Source of the DNA: a bacterium
GTDB lineage: Bacteria; Cyanobacteriota; Vampirovibrionia; Gastranaerophilales; Gastranaerophilaceae
Direction of reading: 5' to 3'
DNA: 12,007 bases
Assembly (NCBI GenBank): GCA_024408905.1
Contig: JAKSUP010000022.1
Location: 1-12,007, forward strand
Both the position numbers and the translations under genes were made by a program. Below the pieces are notes generated by a model. It saw nothing but the letters and a program-made list of their open reading frames with translations, made no database searches and was not told the origin of the DNA. Below are positions 759-10,981 of the stretch, one piece after another; within the stretch, counting starts at the first letter, position 1; every line of letters starts with the position of its first letter.

Positions 759-2192
759 TTAAATATTATACGCAATAAATTTACAAAGTTCGATAATTTT
801 TTCCGGGTAAACACCTATCAAAACCGTTAAAACTGTGCAAACAACAAGCACAAATTTTTGAGAAAATAATGCACTCAAAATATTCACATTTGCATTTTCA
901 CTTGTTTCAAACAATGGTCTTATAAGTTTCAAATAATAGTACAAAGCAACGACTGTTAATAACAATACAGCAATTAAGAACGGCAAAAATATTAGCCCTG
1001 AATTTGCTATTCCACTAAACAAATATATCTTAGACACAAACCCCGATGTTATCGGAAAACCTGCCAAACCTATGATACAAACTGCATACGCAACAGCCAA
1101 ACCGTGATTTTTATGATATAGTCCTTTATAATCTTCAAGGTTATAACCGATACCGTTTGATTCTGTAATATTTAAAAACGCAAATACGCCCAAATTCATT
1201 AATACATAACAGGTCAAATAGAATATAACAGTTGAGAGGTTATATTCTGATACCAAACCTGCGACAAGTATTACATACGCTGCGTTTGCAGCAGAAGAAC
1301 AAGCCAAAATGACCTTAACATTTTTTTCTCTTATAGCATAAGTATTTGCCCAAATAGCTGTCACTATTGCCATAATTGCTATTACAAAAGTCAATTCAAA
1401 ACTGCTTCCTAATGAGAATACCAAAAGTCGGCATACTATTCCGAAAAGCGCAATTTTTGGTATTGTTGATAAAAATGCTAAAATTGAAGTTTCGCTACCT
1501 TTAAACACATCCAACACCCAGTTTGCAAAAGGGAATATTGCGAGTTTTGAAACCAAACCTAACACAATTAAAATTCCTGAAAACGAATAAAGTAAAGATG
1601 GATCCTGTTCAATTATAGTTTCATATATTTCAGAAATATTTAAAGATGAAGTTAAACCGTAAAGATAAGACACACCGAACAAAAATACACCGGTTGAAAC
1701 AGCATTAGTGATTAAATATTTAAATGATGCTTCTTTTGAAAAATATCCTTTTTTTGATGCTATTAAAAAATAAGTCGGAAAACTTAAAAGTTCTACACTT
1801 ATAAACAACGAAATAAAATCATTTGCTGACACAACACACATTCCACCTAATATTGCAGTTAAGAGTATTGCGTGAAATGTGTAAGCATTTTGCTTCATAC
1901 TTTTGACAAGATTTTTTGTTAAAAGCGCCACAAAAAATCCACATAAAAGTATTAAGAAATGGAAAAATAGCGTGTACGCATCGGACATAACGGCATTCTT
2001 AAACCCAAAATACTGAGGCTCTGTCTGAACTGTAGTTAACAAAACTATCCCCAAGGATATTCCCACACAGCTTATCGGACGAGCATATCTATGATACTTT
2101 GGAGAGATAAAAATACTCAAAACCAAATGTATCAATATAAATAGTATTAAACACCCTTGTGGTAGAAATATATTAAAAAAGTCGTTAATCAT
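759..2192 (-). CDS. nuoN: NADH-quinone oxidoreductase subunit N
   Basis: NuoN is one of the three antiporter-like membrane subunits that carry ion translocation in complex I. At 477 residues it has the normal length, with about 14 hydrophobic segments. The functional charges are visible: Glu134 in SVELLS, Lys216 in SKLAIFPF, Lys246 in IPKIALF and Lys388 in GFVSKIYLF. The GLAGFPITSGF motif (375-385) is typical. The family usually has PFHMW after the first lysine; here it is PFANW, so the histidine is missing. The ATG start lies 1 base after the nuoM stop, so translation is probably coupled. It is the last gene of the operon. No terminator hairpin is evident after its TAA, and the convergent ORF ends 11 bases away. 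Confidence 0.95.
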   Translation of the reverse strand: MINDFFNIFLPQGCLILFILIHLVLSIFISPKYHRYARPISCVGISLGIVLLTTVQTEPQYFGFKNAVMSDAYTLFFHFLILLCGFFVALLTKNLVKSMKQNAYTFHAILLTAILGGMCVVSANDFISLFISVELLSFPTYFLIASKKGYFSKEASFKYLITNAVSTGVFLFGVSYLYGLTSSLNISEIYETIIEQDPSLLYSFSGILIVLGLVSKLAIFPFANWVLDVFKGSETSILAFLSTIPKIALFGIVCRLLVFSLGSSFELTFVIAIMAIVTAIWANTYAIREKNVKVILACSSAANAAYVILVAGLVSEYNLSTVIFYLTCYVLMNLGVFAFLNITESNGIGYNLEDYKGLYHKNHGLAVAYAVCIIGLAGFPITSGFVSKIYLFSGIANSGLIFLPFLIAVLLLTVVALYYYLKLIRPLFETSENANVNILSALFSQKFVLVVCTVLTVLIGVYPEKIIELCKFIAYNI

Positions 2193-2193
2193 C

Positions 2194-3681
2194 CTATCCC
2201 AACTCCATTAAATTTAGTATTACATTTGGGAATATTCCAAAAAGTATAAGCCCTATCGTTATTGCCGAAAGTACAACAAACTCGTGCATAGATATGTCAT
2301 TTACTTTGACAAAACTTTCCTTAATTTCGCCAAAGAAACCTTTATGCAAGAATTTGAGCATATAACAAGAGCTTACAATTAACAGAGGAAGCGCAAAAAC
2401 AGCTACGAATTTCAATACGTCGTTCATTTCAGAGAAGAAACTTGCCATAATAGTTGTGATTTCTCCAATAAACGGTGCAAACGCAGGAACACCTATTGAT
2501 GCCAAAACAATTAATGTCGCAAACCCAAACAAACGTGGCATATTTGAAGATATTCCCGATAATTCGTTGATATCACGCGTCTTACAACGCAAATAAACAA
2601 TTCCACAAATCATAAACAATCCGGCTGTTACAAGTGCGTGAGCTACCATATGAAATACTGATGCTCCAAGTCCTATTGCGTTATACGCACATAAGCCCAA
2701 AAGAATTAAACCCATATTAGAAATACTTGAATAAGCGACAATTCTCTTAATATCAGTCTGAGAATAGGCAACAAATGCTGTATAAATAATATTTATCAGA
2801 GCTAAAATTGCCAAAATTGGTGCAATATTCACAAAAGTTTCATTCATCATTTGATAGTTAAATCTATAGATACCATAAGCACCTGTCTTCAATAAAATCC
2901 CTGCAAGAACAATACTTATAGGAGTCGGCGCATTTGTGTGAGCATCAGGTAACCATGTATGTAACGGTATAATCGGAAGTTTTACGCCAAAAGCTATCAA
3001 GAAACAAATTGCAATCAAGTATTGAATTGCTGTTGGAATTGACGTTGTCAATACATCAGCAAAATCACCTGAAAGCACACCTGTTGAAATATAGTTGTAA
3101 TAATGCAAAAGCAGAATTCCGACAAGCATAAATATACTGCCTGTAAACGTAAATATAACAAATTTTACGGCTGATTTTTTAGCATCTTCATTGTCGGATG
3201 TATTCCATTTACCTCCAATCAAGAAATAAGCAGGAATAAGTTCAAGTTCCCAGAACATAAAGAACAGAAACATATCATTTGAAGTAAAAATACCCAATAT
3301 TGCAGACATCAATATTAAAAGCATTGAATAATAAAACTTATGATTTTTTCTTATATTTAACTTGCTTGAAATTGCTGCAATCATAAATATAAAAGAGGTT
3401 AGAGTTGTTAAAATTATACCGACAGAATCAATTTTGAAGGAGAATTTTACCCCCATAGACTGTATCCAATCTAATCCCCAAAAGTGGATGGTGGTTAAAT
3501 ATGGATTTGCTGAATCAAAAAATGCCAACATTAAAATTGCATAAATAAAATGAAATGCGCAAAATGTTTTTACAAAACGACGAATTACAATTTCGTTATT
3601 TGTAAAGAACGGTGACATTAACAAAAATGCCACAAGCATTGGTATAAATATTAAAAACGGTATTGAAATTATATGTTCCAT
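2194..3681 (-). CDS. nuoM: NADH-quinone oxidoreductase subunit M
   Basis: NuoM is the middle antiporter-like subunit of the complex I membrane arm. It is 495 residues long with about 14 membrane segments. The proton-channel residues fall at nearly the positions known in Escherichia coli: Glu145 (WELELIP), Lys234 (FGVKLP), His241 (PLHTWLPDAH), Lys265 (ILLKTGAYG) and Glu407 (FIGEI). The block THAPTP-like NAPTPISIVLAGILLKTGAYG is classical for NuoM. The ATG has a good AAGGAG sequence a few bases upstream. It ends with TAG (2196-2194), and an in-frame TAA lies two codons beyond. Nothing looks damaged. Confidence 0.96.
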   Translation of the reverse strand: MEHIISIPFLIFIPMLVAFLLMSPFFTNNEIVIRRFVKTFCAFHFIYAILMLAFFDSANPYLTTIHFWGLDWIQSMGVKFSFKIDSVGIILTTLTSFIFMIAAISSKLNIRKNHKFYYSMLLILMSAILGIFTSNDMFLFFMFWELELIPAYFLIGGKWNTSDNEDAKKSAVKFVIFTFTGSIFMLVGILLLHYYNYISTGVLSGDFADVLTTSIPTAIQYLIAICFLIAFGVKLPIIPLHTWLPDAHTNAPTPISIVLAGILLKTGAYGIYRFNYQMMNETFVNIAPILAILALINIIYTAFVAYSQTDIKRIVAYSSISNMGLILLGLCAYNAIGLGASVFHMVAHALVTAGLFMICGIVYLRCKTRDINELSGISSNMPRLFGFATLIVLASIGVPAFAPFIGEITTIMASFFSEMNDVLKFVAVFALPLLIVSSCYMLKFLHKGFFGEIKESFVKVNDISMHEFVVLSAITIGLILFGIFPNVILNLMELG

Positions 3682-3702
3682 TATTGCTCCTTATTTATCT
3701 CC

Positions 3703-5571
3703 TTATTCCCCACCGACTCCAAGATTTAATAATATGGTTGTATAAGTTATTAAAAGTAAACTAATTATTATTGTTATTATGATAAATGCATAAGCATTAT
3801 ACTTTTGTATATTCCCGCTTTGGAGTCTTAAATCGAGTTTAGACAAAAAATTTGAAAACTTTTGAACGAGTAAAACAGCACCATTCATAATATTTGTTTC
3901 TACCCATTTTGTAACTCTGACTCCTGTTTTTGCGACAAAAACTGTCGGTTTATAATTTGTCAAAACTTTTGAATCAAACTTACCTAAAATTTGGCAGCAT
4001 TTTTCATAAATTTTTGTAATTTTATTTGTATAAAAATTATCCAAATAAAATCCGTTATATGTTAATGGATAAAGCACAGGAACCTTCCAAAACGCATTTT
4101 TAATAAACAAAATATACGTACAAACCCAAGCCGTTAAAGCTGCCCAAAAAGGCTCTGCGACCTTATAACTTGTATATTTCCATAAATAAACATATAGCAA
4201 AATGTTTGCGATAAATAAACCGATAATTGCTAATAGTTCAATGACTCTTGGCTGTACTTTTTCCAGGCCTTCTGATGCTATTTTTAGAGCAATTCTAAAA
4301 ATATAAAATGCCGTTAAAAACGAAATTATTGAAAATGCAGTAATACTCAAACCACTTTTACAGCTTGTAAATATAAGTTCTTTTGAGGCAACGCCAGAAA
4401 GCAGCATGCCGGATAGTGCCAACCCACCGATTAAAAACGCCGTAAAATTAACATAACTCCATTTTTCATTTTCTCTCGGTAAAGTTAAGAATAGCATTGA
4501 TTTAATAACTGCGTGCGCCACAAAAAATGCAACAGCAGCTTTTATATTCAAAGCTCCGAGTGCAAAAAACATTAACCCAAGTTGAGCAGAAGTAGAATAT
4601 GCCAAAACTTTTTTAGGATGGTTTTGCGAAGCTGCACACAATGAACATATAAATGCCGTCAAAATTCCAAATACTGCAATAAGTTTTAGAATTCCTGATT
4701 CAAGCATAAATAAAGGAATTAATCTTAAAATAATAAATACCCCGAGTGCTACCATTGTCGCTGAATGTAAAAGAGCGCTTACAGGAAGCTTTGCTTCCAT
4801 TGCATCTTGCAGCCAAGTATAAAAAGGAACTTGTGCTGATTTAACAAGCGCTGCAATTATAAATAACAAACATATTCCCCAAAAAGCAGGAGTTGAAGTA
4901 TAAGCATAAATAAGAGTTGAAATTGCATTCATATCAACATAAGAAAGAGTTGTAAAATTTATGTTGTTTGAATAAGAAAACATAAAATACGAACACATAA
5001 TTATGCCGGCAACAAATGCTGTATCGCCTATTCTATTTATGATAAACACTTTTTTGGATGCCAAAGATTTAACAGGGTTTTTATATTCAAAACCTATTAA
5101 TAAATATGAAATCACTCCGACAAGCTCCCAAAAGAAATAAGTTTGGAATAAATTCGGACTAAAAAATAATCCTGCCATTGTGAAATTAAATAAATTTAAC
5201 AGTGCAAAAAATCTGTAGTTCTTTTTTTCATCCTTCATGTAAGAAATACTGAAAAGCTGTACAAAGAAGCTTACAACAAACAAAACAAGCGCGAAAATCA
5301 ATGAAATTTTATCGACATGCAAGCCACATTCAATAATAAAATGATTGATTTTTATAAACGGAAAACTTGTTTCTAATATTTTGTCAGAATTCAAGGAATA
5401 CAAACCCACACCGGACAGAATTGCACCCAATATTGATGCACCAAGCGTTAAAACATAAATTATACTCTTGTTGACATATACAGAGAAAAACCTTCCGAGC
5501 ATTATAATTAAAAATACCCATAATGGCAAAAGTAATATTATATATATGTTATTTAAAATAATATCCGTCAA
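3703..5571 (-). CDS. nuoL: NADH-quinone oxidoreductase subunit L
   Basis: NuoL is the distal antiporter-like subunit, with a C-terminal lateral helix that runs along the membrane arm. It has 622 residues. Visible residues are Glu149 (FWELVG), Asp183 (NRIGDTAF), Lys244 (KSAQVPFYTWLQDAME), His269 (PVSALLHSATMV), His353 and Lys357 (AHAVIKSMLF) and Lys397 (ASKELIF). The stretch from His353 to Lys397 is about 17 residues shorter than in E. coli NuoL (338-399), and the usual GSVIH segment is absent. The C-terminal amphipathic helix and final membrane anchor (about 556-617) are present. The start is TTG at 5571, directly after the nuoK stop. A GGAG 8 bases upstream supports it, and no nearer ATG fits the family N-terminus. 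Confidence 0.95.
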   Translation of the reverse strand: MTDIILNNIYIILLLPLWVFLIIMLGRFFSVYVNKSIIYVLTLGASILGAILSGVGLYSLNSDKILETSFPFIKINHFIIECGLHVDKISLIFALVLFVVSFFVQLFSISYMKDEKKNYRFFALLNLFNFTMAGLFFSPNLFQTYFFWELVGVISYLLIGFEYKNPVKSLASKKVFIINRIGDTAFVAGIIMCSYFMFSYSNNINFTTLSYVDMNAISTLIYAYTSTPAFWGICLLFIIAALVKSAQVPFYTWLQDAMEAKLPVSALLHSATMVALGVFIILRLIPLFMLESGILKLIAVFGILTAFICSLCAASQNHPKKVLAYSTSAQLGLMFFALGALNIKAAVAFFVAHAVIKSMLFLTLPRENEKWSYVNFTAFLIGGLALSGMLLSGVASKELIFTSCKSGLSITAFSIISFLTAFYIFRIALKIASEGLEKVQPRVIELLAIIGLFIANILLYVYLWKYTSYKVAEPFWAALTAWVCTYILFIKNAFWKVPVLYPLTYNGFYLDNFYTNKITKIYEKCCQILGKFDSKVLTNYKPTVFVAKTGVRVTKWVETNIMNGAVLLVQKFSNFLSKLDLRLQSGNIQKYNAYAFIIITIIISLLLITYTTILLNLGVGGE

Positions 5572-5874
5572 TTACAAATCTCCATAGTCTTCAACATTTT
5601 CTGATTTATTTTTATGGTACATAAGATAAAATATATAAAGTGCCACAGCCAATTCTACAGCACCTACTGCGACATAGAATAATGACATAATATATCCGTC
5701 AAATTTTATTCCGTCACAAAATGTTCCAAAAGTTATAAAATTAATGTTTACACCTGTCAGTATAAATTCAATAGAAATAAGCATTTTGATAACATGCCTT
5801 GAAACAACGGCACCAATCATTCCTATGACAAAAAGAACTAATCCCAAGAATAAATAGTGATACATCGTTATCAT
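5572..5874 (-). CDS. nuoK: NADH-quinone oxidoreductase subunit K
   Basis: NuoK is a small three-helix membrane subunit of complex I (MrpC-like) that carries two buried glutamates. It is exactly 100 residues, the usual length. Glu36 in LISIEFILTGVNINF and Glu74 in GAVELAVALYIFYL match the two conserved glutamates. The ATG at 5874 overlaps the nuoJ stop (ATGA), with AAGGGGG about 7 bases upstream; the ATG at 5865 is too far from that sequence. The acidic tail SENVEDYGDL is unusual in detail but harmless. Confidence 0.95.
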   Translation of the reverse strand: MITMYHYLFLGLVLFVIGMIGAVVSRHVIKMLISIEFILTGVNINFITFGTFCDGIKFDGYIMSLFYVAVGAVELAVALYIFYLMYHKNKSENVEDYGDL

Positions 5875-6404
5875 GATTTACCCCCTTTCTTGAAAAGAGT
5901 AAGTCCTGCAACAATAATCGTCAAAATTATTGCGACAATTTCAAATGCCCAAATATATTTTAAAAATATACCTTCTCCAAAAGCCGACAAAATACTGTGT
6001 GGATTTTGGCAGATGCAACCCGTCAGATTAAAACCGTCAGGTACAACCACGTTTGAAGTCATTACTATATAAATAATTGCAAGCACGAAAACGCCACCAA
6101 CAAGATACATAAAATATTTAAAATTAAATCCTTTTTCTGTATTTTTTTCAGGTTTTGCTTTGTTTTCCGTAAACATAATACTAAGTCCTAAAATTACTGG
6201 AACAGCAATTCCATATATTAAAACTTGCGCTATTGCATTATATTCAGAGCCTAAAACATAGAAAAACATGCCGGCTAAAAAGAAAACAATAATTGCTGAT
6301 ATTAACGAATAAAAAATGTTTTTGAAATTTATTGTCATTAAGGCAAATAAAATCATAACAACACAAGCAGGATAAAAAACAATCGGGTTAGTCAATCCGT
6401 TCAT
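5871..6404 (-). CDS. nuoJ: NADH-quinone oxidoreductase subunit J
   Basis: NuoJ is a five-helix membrane subunit next to NuoH and NuoK in the complex I membrane arm. The frame can be opened at GTG 6413, but that codon lies inside the AGGAGGT ribosome-binding sequence (6412-6418). ATG 6404, 7 bases downstream of it, is the better start and gives 177 residues. The third helix has the family pattern YVLGSEYNAIAQVLIYGIAVPVILG (about 49-73), including the conserved tyrosine (Tyr64) before the helix bulge, although the usual VGAIMVLFLF is replaced by GIAVPVILGL. The start overlaps the end of nuoI by 17 bases, and the TGA stop overlaps the nuoK ATG. Confidence 0.93.
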   Translation of the reverse strand: MNGLTNPIVFYPACVVMILFALMTINFKNIFYSLISAIIVFFLAGMFFYVLGSEYNAIAQVLIYGIAVPVILGLSIMFTENKAKPEKNTEKGFNFKYFMYLVGGVFVLAIIYIVMTSNVVVPDGFNLTGCICQNPHSILSAFGEGIFLKYIWAFEIVAIILTIIVAGLTLFKKGGKS

Positions 6405-6759
6405 CTTTGCCACCTCCTATATCATATGTTAATTTTAAATCACTTTTATCAGGTGTTGCAAGTTCAAAATCGTTTGTACATTTTATAGCTTTAACAGGAC
6501 AATAATACGTACAATTCCCACAGAAAATACATTTTTCTAAATCGATTGTAAAATTATTATCTTCAATTTTTATAGCACCACTTGGACAAACTTTTGTACA
6601 ATTCATACATTTTATACACCCGTCAACAACAATTTTCCCCCTATAGTTTTCAGGCACTTCAGGTCTTTTTTCAGGGTATTCTAATGTGACGGGTCTTTTA
6701 AACAGGTGTTTTCCCACAGTCAATAAGCCTATAAGAAGTGATTTTATACCTTTAAGCAT
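6388..6759 (-). CDS. nuoI: NADH-quinone oxidoreductase subunit I (two 4Fe-4S ferredoxin-like)
   Basis: NuoI carries clusters N6a and N6b, which pass electrons towards NuoB. Two complete 4Fe-4S motifs are present: CIKCMNCTKVCP (Cys48, 51, 54, 58) and CIFCGNCTYYCP (Cys77, 80, 83, 87). At 123 residues it is compact compared with proteobacterial homologues. The N-terminal amphipathic segment that docks to NuoH is present (about 1-20). The frame can be opened at GTG 6765, but GGGAGG is directly adjacent to that codon. ATG 6759, 5 bases downstream of GGAGG, is the likely start. It overlaps the end of the nuoH frame by 8 bases. Confidence 0.94.
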   Translation of the reverse strand: MLKGIKSLLIGLLTVGKHLFKRPVTLEYPEKRPEVPENYRGKIVVDGCIKCMNCTKVCPSGAIKIEDNNFTIDLEKCIFCGNCTYYCPVKAIKCTNDFELATPDKSDLKLTYDIGGGKDERID

Positions 6760-7066
6760 ACACACCTCCCAAGATTAATTTTATTATGACCATAAAGAAA
6801 AAGTTAATAATCGCAATAGGCAAAAGTCCTGCCCAAGAAAACTTTAATAAATCAAATGAGGCAAGACGAGGATAGGTTGCTCTTACCCAAATAATTAAAA
6901 ATATAATGAAAAAGGATTTTGCGAAAAGCCAAAATGCTTGTTCAAAATAAATCATGATGTTTGCTATATTATCTGAAAACAACATCGGACTTAAATATTT
7001 ACCAAAAGGCGAAAGGTATCCACCCAAAAACAGAATAGAAATTAATAGAGCATTTGCAAAAAGCAT
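6752..7066 (-). CDS. nuoH: C-terminal fragment of NuoH, downstream of an in-frame stop
   Basis: This stretch reads MLFANALLISILFLGGYLSPFG at its start and contains the last membrane helices of NuoH (about 104 residues). It is in exactly the same frame as the N-terminal part at 7849-7079, so only one TAG codon separates them. After the TAG come GEY-A and then this ATG, which line up with the family motif FFxGEYA. A weak AGGG lies 10 bases before the ATG, so independent re-initiation is possible but unconvincing. It ends in TAA and overlaps nuoI by 8 bases. It is best read as the rest of one interrupted gene. Confidence 0.85.
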   Translation of the reverse strand: MLFANALLISILFLGGYLSPFGKYLSPMLFSDNIANIMIYFEQAFWLFAKSFFIIFLIIWVRATYPRLASFDLLKFSWAGLLPIAIINFFFMVIIKLILGGVYA

Positions 7067-7078
7067 AGCGTATTCGCC

Positions 7079-7081
7079 CTA
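7079..7081 (-). other. nuoH: In-frame amber (TAG) codon interrupting nuoH
   Basis: The codon follows MRFAMFY and precedes GEYA. Family members have a hydrophobic residue, most often Leu, Val or Met, between the aromatic pair and the Gly/Ala-Glu-Tyr. A TTG leucine codon would differ by one base. No stop occurs in the following 108 codons. Confidence 0.9.
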
Positions 7082-7849
7082 ATAAAACATTGCAAATCTC
7101 ATGCCTGAGTATTCCGTATTATATCCACAAATAAGTTCACTCTCTGCTTCCGGTAAATCGAAAGGACAACGATTTAATTCTGCCAAAATAGAGATAAACA
7201 TAATTACAAAACCGATTATACAAGGTAAAATATACCACCCCAAAACTCCGTATTTTGAACTCTGCGCAAGTGTAATTTGAGTCAAGTTTAAAGATGACGC
7301 TAATGTTGCAACCGATAATACAGTAAACGCAATAGGAAGTTCGTAAGCTAAAATTTGAGAAACATTTCTCATAGCACCCATAAGTGAATATTTGTTATTG
7401 CTCGCCCAGCCACCAAGTAAAATACAAAGAACAGGGAGTGTCGCAATCGCAACATACAACAACAAATTCGTTCCGAAATCCATAAATGTAAATTCGGAAC
7501 TATACGGAATTAACCCTAAAGCCACAGGAATTGGAATAAAAATCAATATCGGTGCAAGGTTAAATAAAACTCTATCAACTCCTTTTGGTGTGACATTTTC
7601 TTTGCATAACAATTTGAATGCATCAGCTACTGTTTGTAAAACGCCCCAAATTCCGACTCTATTTGGGCCTTTTCTTTGGGTGAAAAATCCAAGGAGCTTT
7701 CTTTCAATTAATACCAAAGCTAAAATTACAATTAATAAAGCCACAAAAATAATAACTAAAGGAATAGCATAAAATGTTATATCCCCAAAAATCTGCGAAA
7801 TACCGTGTTTTGATAAAAATTCTATGTATAAATGATATAAATAGTTCAT
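7079..7849 (-). CDS. nuoH: NADH-quinone oxidoreductase subunit H, N-terminal part (interrupted)
   Basis: NuoH joins the hydrophilic arm to the membrane arm and forms much of the quinone channel. The first 256 residues are well conserved: ERKLLGFFTQRKGPNRVG (49-66), ADAFKLLCKE (75-84), GGWASNNKYSLMGAMR (146-161) and AELNRCPFDLPEAESELICGYNTEYSGMRFAMF (223-255). A TAG at codon 257 stops translation before the last two membrane helices, which follow in the same frame at 7066-6752. With readthrough the product would be 365 residues, a typical NuoH length. The ATG start overlaps the nuoD stop (TAATG), with GGAGG about 10 bases upstream. If the stop is real, the complex would lack part of its proximal membrane module. 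Confidence 0.92.
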   Translation of the reverse strand: MNYLYHLYIEFLSKHGISQIFGDITFYAIPLVIIFVALLIVILALVLIERKLLGFFTQRKGPNRVGIWGVLQTVADAFKLLCKENVTPKGVDRVLFNLAPILIFIPIPVALGLIPYSSEFTFMDFGTNLLLYVAIATLPVLCILLGGWASNNKYSLMGAMRNVSQILAYELPIAFTVLSVATLASSLNLTQITLAQSSKYGVLGWYILPCIIGFVIMFISILAELNRCPFDLPEAESELICGYNTEYSGMRFAMFY

Positions 7850-8934
7850 TATTTATCGACCTCCGGTAAAATAATATCAAGAGAGCCGGCTATTGCTATC
7901 GCGTCATTCAAGTATTCTCCGACCAAAAGTTTTCTCAAAAGATTTACTGAATAATATGAGCCTGTTCTCCACTTCAATCTGTATGGAGTTTTTTCTTCTG
8001 TAGATTTTATATAAACACTTGCTAAACCTCGTGGCGCCTCAATTTCAGAATAATATTCTCCTTGAGGCAGCTTAATATTCAACGGATTTACAAATGTTTG
8101 CTCAACCCCTGTACTTTGTTTCAATTTTCCCAAAATCTGCTTTATTATATTTATGGATTCTTTTATTTCCAAAATTCTTGCCTTATAACGACACCAAGCA
8201 TCTTTCCCCAAAAGTACAACAGGCTTAAATTCAATATCTTTGTACAAATAATCATTTGACCTTATATCCAAATTTATACCACTCGTCCTCAAATTAACTC
8301 CTGTAATTCCAAAATTCAATGCAACATCTGAGTTCAAACTCCCTTTACCCTTTGTTCTTTGGATAAAAATAGGATTGTCAGTTATAATTTTTTCATAATC
8401 ATTTAATTTTGAAGGCAGAATTTTTATAATATTTTCAACATCCTCCAAGTCAAAAATATCACGCCTTACACCCCCATAGACAAAATAATTATTCATCATT
8501 CTTTGGCCTGTAACTTTTTCAAAATATTTCAGGATAAGTTCACGCTCTCTAAATGCATAGAAAAACGGTGAAACAGCACCCAAATCCATCAAAAATGCAC
8601 CAATCCACAGTAGGTGTGATGCGATTCTATTCAATTCAAGCATCAAAACTCTTATATTCTTAACCCTTGATGAAAGTTCTATATCAAGTGCTTTTTCTAC
8701 TGTCCTGCACAGAAGCTCGGAATAGAAAAATCCTGCAAGATAGTCAATTCTATCAACAAGTGGCAAATATTGAATATAACTCAATTTTTCTGCCATTTTC
8801 TCCATCCCTCTATGAAGATAGCCGACATCAGGTTCGCAAGAAAGAATTTTTTCTCCTTCAAGCTCTAATATCAACCTCAAAACTCCGTGTGTTGAAGGGT
8901 GTTGAGGGCCTAAATTGAGTTTTAATTTAGTCAT
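7849..8934 (-). CDS. nuoD: NADH-quinone oxidoreductase subunit D (49-kDa-type)
   Basis: NuoD forms the quinone-binding pocket together with NuoB. It is a separate gene, not fused to nuoC as in E. coli. It has 361 residues, with the start GPQHPSTHGVLRL (9-21), CEPDVGYLHRGMEKMAE (33-49), DRIDYLAGF (61-69) and the usual end ILPEVDK. His16 and Tyr65 correspond to the quinone-head ligands His38 and Tyr87 of Thermus Nqo4; their 49-residue spacing is the same. The ATG at 8934 overlaps the nuoC end by 8 bases, with GAGG a few bases upstream. The gene is intact and is followed directly by nuoH; in NADH-oxidising operons nuoE, nuoF and nuoG commonly occupy that gap. Confidence 0.96.
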   Translation of the reverse strand: MTKLKLNLGPQHPSTHGVLRLILELEGEKILSCEPDVGYLHRGMEKMAEKLSYIQYLPLVDRIDYLAGFFYSELLCRTVEKALDIELSSRVKNIRVLMLELNRIASHLLWIGAFLMDLGAVSPFFYAFRERELILKYFEKVTGQRMMNNYFVYGGVRRDIFDLEDVENIIKILPSKLNDYEKIITDNPIFIQRTKGKGSLNSDVALNFGITGVNLRTSGINLDIRSNDYLYKDIEFKPVVLLGKDAWCRYKARILEIKESINIIKQILGKLKQSTGVEQTFVNPLNIKLPQGEYYSEIEAPRGLASVYIKSTEEKTPYRLKWRTGSYYSVNLLRKLLVGEYLNDAIAIAGSLDIILPEVDK

Positions 8935-9349
8935 TCCACCTCAACCTTTCATCATTTTGTACGTAGTCTTTTCTAAGAGGATGCCCTTCCCAACTTTCAG
9001 GTAAATATAGCCTTTTTAATTCATCATTTCCGACAAATTTTACCCCGAATAAATCATAAATTTCTTTTTCGTCAGCCACAGCTGATTCAAAAATTTTTGA
9101 TACACTTTCTGCAAAATCATTTACAACAAACGACACTAATACACTTTCTTCATTTTCAGTCGAATAAAGTCTGTATATCAGTTCAATTCCGTGTTCTTTA
9201 TTATCCACGGCAACAATTTCTTTTAATAAATTAAAACCATAATTATCTTTTATAAATTCTATAGTTTTAGCCAAATCTGACTTAATGACGATTTTTTCGT
9301 CAATAAGTTCGCAGTTTTGAAATATATCGTTAAATTCATTTATGTTCAT
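8927..9349 (-). CDS. nuoC: NADH-quinone oxidoreductase subunit C (30-kDa-type)
   Basis: NuoC is a cofactor-free structural subunit of the hydrophilic arm that packs against NuoD. It has 140 residues. The C-terminal family signature is clear: EKEIYDLFGVKF (about 94-105) and LYLPESWEGHPLRKDY (113-128). The N-terminal half is short and weakly conserved, as is common. The ATG at 9349 directly follows the nuoB stop, with GGAG 8 bases before it, and the 3' end overlaps nuoD by 8 bases, so translation is probably coupled. Confidence 0.95.
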   Translation of the reverse strand: MNINEFNDIFQNCELIDEKIVIKSDLAKTIEFIKDNYGFNLLKEIVAVDNKEHGIELIYRLYSTENEESVLVSFVVNDFAESVSKIFESAVADEKEIYDLFGVKFVGNDELKRLYLPESWEGHPLRKDYVQNDERLRWND

Positions 9350-9901
9350 TTATTCAACTCCAATTTTTGTTACGGTAAAATCGTTTTCAACCAATATCCC
9401 ACAGTATTCCTTCAATTTTGGAGTATGTTTTTCAACGAACTCTTTTCTTTTTAAAATAGATTCTTTTTTAATTTCTTTTTGCAATTTTCTAATCGCATCA
9501 AGTAAAGCTTCCGGTTTTGGCGGACACAAAGGTAAATAAATATCCACAGGTATAATTTTGTCAATACCGTTTACAACAGAATAAGATGTTTCATTAAACA
9601 TCCCGCCACCACAGGTACAAGCACCCATAGCAATTACATATTTAGGTTCAGCCATTTGTTCATAGAGTTTCAAAAGTGCAGGTGCCATTTTGTGAGTAAT
9701 TGTCCCTGCACAAATCAATAAATCTGCTTGTCTTGGAGAACCTCTAAAAACTTCTGAGCCAAAACGTGCAATATCATTATTTGAAGCAACTGTATGCATC
9801 ATTTCTATACCACAACAAGATGTTGCAAATGTCAAAGGCCACAAGGAATTTGCCCTTGACCAATTTAAGATATAATCAACGGAGGTTACTATAACATTCA
9901 T
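9350..9901 (-). CDS. nuoB: NADH-quinone oxidoreductase subunit B (cluster N2, NdhK-like)
   Basis: NuoB carries the terminal 4Fe-4S cluster N2, which reduces quinone. The four ligands are the adjacent Cys29-Cys30 in ATSCCGIEM, Cys95 in [10 protein letters not shown] and Cys126 in [10 protein letters not shown]. The 31-residue step between the last two, the GACT...GGMF motif and CPPKPEA match cyanobacterial NdhK and not proteobacterial NuoB, which has a 29-residue step. An extra Cys97 lies next to a ligand. The frame could open at GTG 9910, but ATG 9901 has GAGG 8 bases upstream and overlaps the nuoA stop by one base, giving 183 residues. It is intact. Confidence 0.95.
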
Positions 9902-10254
9902 TATATCCACCTCAACATTCGTTTTTTTATTGCAAAAATTAAGCCAAAAAGCAAAATTCCGACAAACAAAAAGGCTTCTGCAACAGCGAAAATTCCTAAC
10001 GAATTCAAGGATATTGCAAACGGATAAAGAAAAATAGTTTCTATATCGAAGATTAAAAACAAAATGGCATAGTTAAAATATCTTATATCAAACTTGATTT
10101 TTGCATCTTCAAAAGGAGTAATTCCACATTCATAGGTCGTATTTTTTAATGCACTTTCTTTTTTATACTGGCACAAGAATCCTGCAACAACCATTAATAT
10201 TGCTAAAATAGTTGATAAAACCACGAATATTGCTAAACAAACAAGCTCCTTCAA
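9901..10254 (-). CDS. nuoA: NADH-quinone oxidoreductase subunit A
   Basis: NuoA is a three-helix membrane subunit near the quinone entry site. At 117 residues it has the usual length. [38 protein letters not shown] (about 41-78) is the family hallmark, including the loop with the conserved cysteine and the acidic second helix. The start codon is TTG at 10254, supported by AAGGAG (minus strand of 10262-10267) 7 bases upstream and by the expected N-terminal helix. It is the first gene of the operon. The next gene upstream, for the TPR protein, is divergent. Confidence 0.94.
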
Positions 10255-10331: not shown

Positions 10332-10354
10332 ATTAAGACAAATTTATGCGACAA
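10327..10354 (-). promoter_or_regulatory. Candidate promoter of the nuo operon
   Basis: On the minus strand TTGTCG (10354-10349) and TATTAT (10332-10327) are 16 bases apart, giving a start near 10320 and a leader of about 66 bases. The -10 box overlaps the TATAAT box of the divergent TPR gene. An alternative with TTGTCT at 10341-10336 is weaker. The region is so AT-rich that this is tentative. Confidence 0.35.
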
Positions 10355-10981
10355 CTTTCCACCATATTTTTATCAATAATTTTTTTTACGCTACTGTTTG
10401 CTCAGCCGTCTTACTCTGCACTTCGAGGTGGCATAGATTACAGTATACCTATTGAATACAGGAATTTGTCAGAGAATGAACTTCAAAAAAAAGCAAGCTA
10501 TCATTATTTTGAAGCAATAAAGGCGAAAGATGGGGTTATAACAGACGATATAACTGATGCCCTTAATCTTTATACAATATTGCAAAACGTAAATCCTGAT
10601 AATGTGGAATATAGTATAAAGCTTGGCATATTATACGGAAAAATCGGAAAAGACAGATATGCAAAAGGAAATCTCTACAGAGCAATAAGCATAAATGACA
10701 ATAACCCAGCTGCATACTATCAATTGGGAGAATTTTATTACAAAAGAACTTCATATAAAAAAGCTCTGAAGTTTTATACCATAGCTTATCAAAAAGGCTA
10801 TTCAAAAGACTATGATACTTTGTATAAATTGGGCGATATCTACGAAAAATTCGGGGATACAAAAGAAGCTCTGAAATACTTAAAAGAAGCATCTTTACAA
10901 AGTCCAAATTCAGAACTCGATAGCAAAATTAAAAGAGTAGAAACTTTTGACTCTATAAATAAGGAATATTATACAAAATAA
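10346..10981 (+). CDS. Secreted TPR-repeat protein
   Basis: This 211-residue protein begins with a signal peptide: MRQ, then a hydrophobic core (about 6-20) and a likely cleavage after SYSA (25). The mature part is mostly tetratricopeptide repeats, at about 85-118, 121-154 and 155-189 (YKLGDIYEKFGDTKEALKYLKEAS is the clearest), with a poorer one at 51-84. Such helical arrays mediate protein contacts outside the cytoplasm or at the envelope. No catalytic domain is visible and the partner is unknown. It is transcribed alone: divergent from nuoA with 91 bases between, and closed by a strong terminator 26 bases downstream. It lacks a Shine-Dalgarno sequence, unlike the nuo genes. Confidence 0.9.
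   Translation: MRQLSTIFLSIIFFTLLFAQPSYSALRGGIDYSIPIEYRNLSENELQKKASYHYFEAIKAKDGVITDDITDALNLYTILQNVNPDNVEYSIKLGILYGKIGKDRYAKGNLYRAISINDNNPAAYYQLGEFYYKRTSYKKALKFYTIAYQKGYSKDYDTLYKLGDIYEKFGDTKEALKYLKEASLQSPNSELDSKIKRVETFDSINKEYYTK

Follow-up and report, generated by a model that had tools for sequence, protein, structure and literature searches.

The gut and aquifer Melainabacteria, relatives of the organism studied here, have been presented as flagellated obligate fermenters with an incomplete electron transport chain, in which an 11-subunit complex I is one among several possible ion pumps (PMC3787301). In a survey of complex I genes covering 44 Melainabacteria drafts of one catalogue, 22 of them from the Gastranaerophilales, 14 of the drafts retrieved are reported to lack any complex I gene (PMC8235220). 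Among the subunits of this complex, the membrane protein NuoH forms a single family with NdhA and ND1 (PF00146). In this work, we analysed a window of 12,007 bases, which is an entire contig (C135) of a draft genome that totals 1,708,849 bases, spread over 336 contigs, with a completeness of 78.24% and a contamination of 4.9%. What distinguishes the nuoH gene found here from this known family is that one stop codon breaks it.

The interrupted nuoH gene and its operon

The window carries a minus-strand operon of 11 complex I genes in the order nuoA-B-C-D-H-I-J-K-L-M-N, with Pfam support for D, H, I, L, M and N. The features of the region are as follows:

759 to 6413, minus strand: nuoJ, nuoK, nuoL, nuoM and nuoN, intact, from alignment to relatives (L, M and N also from Pfam)
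6388 to 6765, minus strand: nuoI, overlapping the end of nuoH, from Pfam and alignment to relatives
6752 to 7078, minus strand: nuoH tail, 108 codons plus TAA in the same frame (PF00146, 1.3e-16)
7079 to 7081, minus strand: in-frame TAG at nuoH codon 257, a leucine in the relatives examined
7082 to 7849, minus strand: nuoH front part, 256 codons before the stop (PF00146, 1.3e-80)
7849 to 8934, minus strand: nuoD, intact, from Pfam and alignment to relatives
8927 to 10254, minus strand: nuoC, nuoB and nuoA, intact, from alignment to relatives

Translation of nuoH (7849-6752, minus strand) gives a 366-codon frame broken only at codon 257, a TAG at 7081-7079, so that 256 residues, the TAG, 108 residues and a TAA follow each other with no change of frame. 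The first ATG of the tail lies at 7066, 12 bases past the TAG. Both pieces fit contiguous parts of the PF00146 profile (298 positions), the front covering positions 3-220 and the tail 222-297, and both exceed the family cut-off of 27, with 271.4 and 61.2 bits, respectively. The best-scoring solved relative of the product is 6hum_A, subunit 1 of an NAD(P)H-quinone oxidoreductase. The central claim of the original prediction, a nuoH split by a lone in-frame TAG with its remainder intact, is therefore borne out by translation and by the family profile, and the interruption is confirmed as a true reading of the sequence. A whole-genome search gave this gene, reported as '1 TAG' within a 366-codon frame, as the sole PF00146 match, and no second gene of the family that could act as a backup was found in the draft (78% complete). 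Homopolymers at the stop are short, the longest adjoining runs being TTTT and GGG, and a search for tandem repeats found none. Promoter-like patterns around the gene (9 versus 7.7 in shuffles) and terminator-like ones (2 versus 1.0) were also counted.

The ten remaining nuo genes (A, B, C, D, I, J, K, L, M and N) are open and relatives align over most of their length, in agreement with the earlier view that all of them look intact. Nine relative loci were tried in this comparison, several of which hold a partial operon, and nuoN and the full-length nuoM were compared with one relative only. The stop codon of nuoM is also a TAG. Divergent from the operon, a TPR-repeat protein is encoded on the plus strand (10346-10981), with its ATG 91 bases from the nuoA start.

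Codon 257 in relatives and the age of the stop

The front part of nuoH was matched in 54 of the 57 genomes searched, its own genome counted. The three genomes with no match (G038, G046 and G049) all come from one family of the same order, and complex I seems to be absent from parts of this order. When close relatives were aligned, as had been proposed as a check, nuoH turned out to be one open frame of 356-389 codons in all 33 same-genus relatives, against 257 here, and for this reason the break goes beyond chance. Codon 257 is a leucine, written with five different leucine codons, in 29 of the 29 same-genus loci aligned (four of the 33 were left out). The same residue occupies the site in 120 of 120 database proteins, the best 120 of 7,996 front-part matches, the closest of which is 84% identical. 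A stop at this codon was found in none of the relatives examined. An early stop at a position that is sense in its relatives is one of the features expected of a nonsense allele or young pseudogene, and the gene shows it.

Of the named genomes, those that match the front part best are two drafts of Candidatus Gastranaerophilales (74 and 75%), one of them from a rumen co-assembly, and the genome analysed here probably belongs in or near this order. Among genome contigs, where near records of its own genome may be excluded, the best match reached 75% and no nuoH allele of the same species was found. Similarly, the search for a same-species NuoN gave as its first match a two-member cluster from the contig of the window itself, followed by a match at 77%. 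Two other records close by NuoH (L064 and L069, 74% and 70%) are titled 'uncultured Acinetobacter sp.', apparently a labelling mistake.

The age of the stop was approached through the ratio between the nonsynonymous divergence (dN) of the tail and that of the front, obtained from Nei-Gojobori counts for 30 sequences and leaving out pairs with a front dN of 0.03 or less. The mean ratio for the window, 1.28, was the second lowest of the 30 (range 1.22-1.72), a relative measure that gives no date, with synonymous sites near saturation even against the closest relative. No sign of relaxed constraint or of further lesions behind the stop was found, either in this ratio or as a further stop within the tail, which has been under normal constraint for nearly all its history. 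This unrelaxed tail with no second stop speaks against an old and decaying pseudogene. It follows that the stop must be very recent, tolerated, or a mistake in the sequence, and the earlier inference holds: the lack of further damage does point to a recent event, to continued function or to an error.

Possible translation through or around the stop

A tolerated stop might be explained by decoding. The draft carries two open release-factor genes, which, from their motifs, we take to be one RF1-like and one RF2-like. ARAGORN confirmed 27 of 28 tRNA matches and added one tRNA-Thr; no CUA anticodon appeared among its tRNAs at 28 loci of the 78% complete draft, and the weak match L059 was confirmed by neither ARAGORN nor Rfam. 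PylS was searched for and not found in the same draft, and with neither this enzyme nor a CUA tRNA at this level of completeness, the insertion of pyrrolysine is not supported. In a sample of 81 sequences including the window (476,328 bases, 28% of the genome), TAG closes 55 of the 268 frames of at least 200 codons, TAA 186 and TGA 27. This count is mechanical, since both nuoH itself and contig C38 are in it, perhaps along with frames that are not genes, and its contigs are non-random, 20 having been picked for tRNA or release-factor genes and the other 60 by number. The use of TAG as a general sense codon is rejected on the open RF1 gene, the tRNA set, the TAG terminators (nuoM among them) and the fact that a second isolated stop of the draft, described below, is a TAA; general recoding is unlikely in this genome. 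Recoding at this site alone would need a suppressor tRNA or a local context that adds a residue at the TAG, and full-length NuoH would then be made. The normal constraint of the tail fits such a read-through, and a CUA tRNA could be absent from a draft of this completeness, but all the evidence just given on release factors, anticodons, PylS and TAG termination stands against it. Moreover, no Rfam match at gathering score was found in the window that could act as a structured signal, the RNA fold around the stop is unremarkable (z -1.25, with 20 of 200 shuffles as good), and no relative examined shares the stop. Among the papers found on stop recoding in Gastranaerophilales or on a premature stop or read-through in nuoH, none covers the case, judged by title. 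We regard read-through or suppression as improbable, and still more so a version in which the TAG is a fixed trait of the species and single-site suppression or read-through yields full-length NuoH, perhaps as a way of adjusting how much complex I is made.

The second way around the stop is a protein in two chains, in which translation of the tail would resume at the ATG 12 bases downstream and both chains would assemble. Such a short distance would permit reinitiation. With the tail as the only query, 27 solitary NuoH tail pieces turned up in the protein database, and three of the 12 read begin at the equivalent methionine. Each of the 27 is known from one contig, however, and the starts of the 12 differ. 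One piece with another start (P0138, 171 residues) comes from a contig of 110 kb and is for that reason unlikely to be just the fragment of a short contig; it may stem from a related organism in which the gene broke independently, upstream of the tail. Together with the three pieces that start at the methionine, it is the best that a split form has in its favour. A restart would omit the GEYA motif, whose Glu259 and Tyr260 are invariant in 36 aligned proteins (36 of the 120 listed); on the other hand, the glutamate is not universal, and since the aligned chain 6hum_A has an alanine there, losing it is not necessarily fatal on its own. The ATG of the tail corresponds to a methionine that intact NuoH almost always has, and is therefore no new start. 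The break, at residue 257, also sits within a helix predicted at 247-274 in the structure model of a relative, which is of modest confidence (mean pLDDT 61.5) and was consulted for this helix alone, and because of this position a two-chain NuoH is unlikely. None of the 33 same-genus relatives is split, and the break is neither conserved in relatives nor, in that same model of modest confidence, placed between helices, as would be expected of a true split NuoH. From these data, two assembling chains appear very improbable.

A second isolated stop and the choice between allele and error

Other interrupted genes were sought by scanning the draft for pairs of adjacent same-frame open stretches, which gave 34 pairs when the two together spanned at least 160 codons and 26 in a second scan at 130 or more. 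By eye, most of them are neighbouring genes or non-coding frames and, with contig C38 set aside, one recognised conserved gene besides nuoH has an isolated stop: fliH, on the minus strand of contig C57, with a single in-frame TAA at 1968-1966 in a neighbourhood that we take to be fliF-fliG-fliH-fliI. Because an isolated TAA also breaks fliH, the case of nuoH is neither unique nor specific for TAG. The fliH gene is one open frame of 249-260 codons in 19 same-genus relatives searched, the stop site holds sense residues in eleven aligned relatives, and a TAA reported in the fliH of genome G011 is the ordinary end of that gene. In the better draft of the relative G033, 18 pairs were obtained in 272,890 bases and no interrupted gene was recognised by eye among them. 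In these scans the selection was made by eye, with nuoH and fliH the only genes checked individually against relatives, an initial codon-usage-filtered scan missed nuoH, which makes such scans incompletely sensitive, and two isolated stops are too few to build a rate.

Both genomes were also compared directly. Frames of G033 had a best match of at least 50% in our sample in 34 of 238 instances, 26 of them clean and three flagged: nuoH, a frame on contig C146 that stops 58 bases short of the contig end, and a 78-residue match that is weak. In the reverse direction, 34 of 276 frames were matched, 29 of them cleanly, and the three flags fell on a frame antisense to nuoH, on the end of nuoM (stop at 492 of 495) and on a frame with five stops that is antisense to frames of 532 and 571 codons. 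Two irregularities of the draft stand out. On contig C146, at about 44-60, the frame of a gene that matches a G033 protein of 700 residues is lost within some 60 bases of the contig end, perhaps an assembly-edge error. Contig C38 (4708 bases) has a long minus-strand frame with several in-frame TGA codons in what could well be coding sequence, as though TGA stood for an amino acid, tryptophan for instance, and is probably foreign or chimeric.

Of the four options initially listed, recent mutation and error remain, whereas suppression and two assembling chains have lost ground, the former to the release factors, tRNAs, missing PylS and ordinary use of TAG, the latter to the unsplit relatives and the predicted helix; jointly they keep only a small share of the probability. 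The likeliest explanation, which we hold slightly better than an even bet, is that a nonsense mutation has recently inactivated nuoH, leaving a loss-of-function allele in a complex I that the cell can do without; a consensus error is close behind. Under such an allele, RF1 would terminate translation at the TAG, the 256-residue product would end inside a transmembrane helix and lack the last part of NuoH, and the membrane arm of the 11-subunit complex could not be completed. Cells would survive in the manner of the related Melainabacteria described as fermenters, with complex I as one of several possible ion pumps, and the allele may be a passing variant of the population instead of a trait of the species. 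The flagellar system of fliH is taken to be dispensable as well. Also in favour of the nonsense allele are the open nuoH of all 33 same-genus relatives, the leucine at codon 257 in the loci and database proteins compared, the unrelaxed tail, the failure to find a second PF00146 gene in the draft and the apparent absence of complex I from parts of the order. Against the nonsense allele stand the fragmentation of the draft, in which one contig or more looks foreign, and the undecayed state of the other nuo genes. If the consensus or the assembly is wrong, a serious contender that we place somewhat short of even, the living cells have a sense codon that the draft misreports through low coverage or the mixing of strains. 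The number of contigs, the completeness and the contamination of the draft all favour this explanation, as do two isolated stops of different kinds in 476 kb of sampled contigs, where inspection by eye turned up none across 273 kb of the better relative draft, the binning trouble suggested by the contig with in-frame TGA codons, and the undecayed tail. It is weakened by the lack of any long homopolymer at the stop and by the finding that both broken genes belong to systems taken as dispensable, no housekeeping gene having been recognised, even if two cases prove little. Since no reads, second isolate or same-species sequence were found, an error fits the data nearly as well as the nonsense allele does. 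The draft should consequently be labelled neither complex-I-positive nor complex-I-negative, and isolated stops in draft genomes require backing from reads. Should the allele prove real, complex I would seem to be open to loss in one step in a fermenting gut-type bacterium.

Two known kinds of defect resemble what we find. Ordinary nonsense alleles and very young bacterial pseudogenes likewise show one isolated stop in a gene that is otherwise intact and whose relatives are intact; nothing tested sets nuoH apart from them, provided that the base is real. Consensus errors are a familiar defect of metagenome-assembled genomes, where a fragmented draft likewise comes with isolated single-codon defects in unrelated genes. 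The stop in nuoH looks like a recent gene-breaking mutation of an ordinary kind or a draft-assembly error, and not like a new way of decoding a gene.
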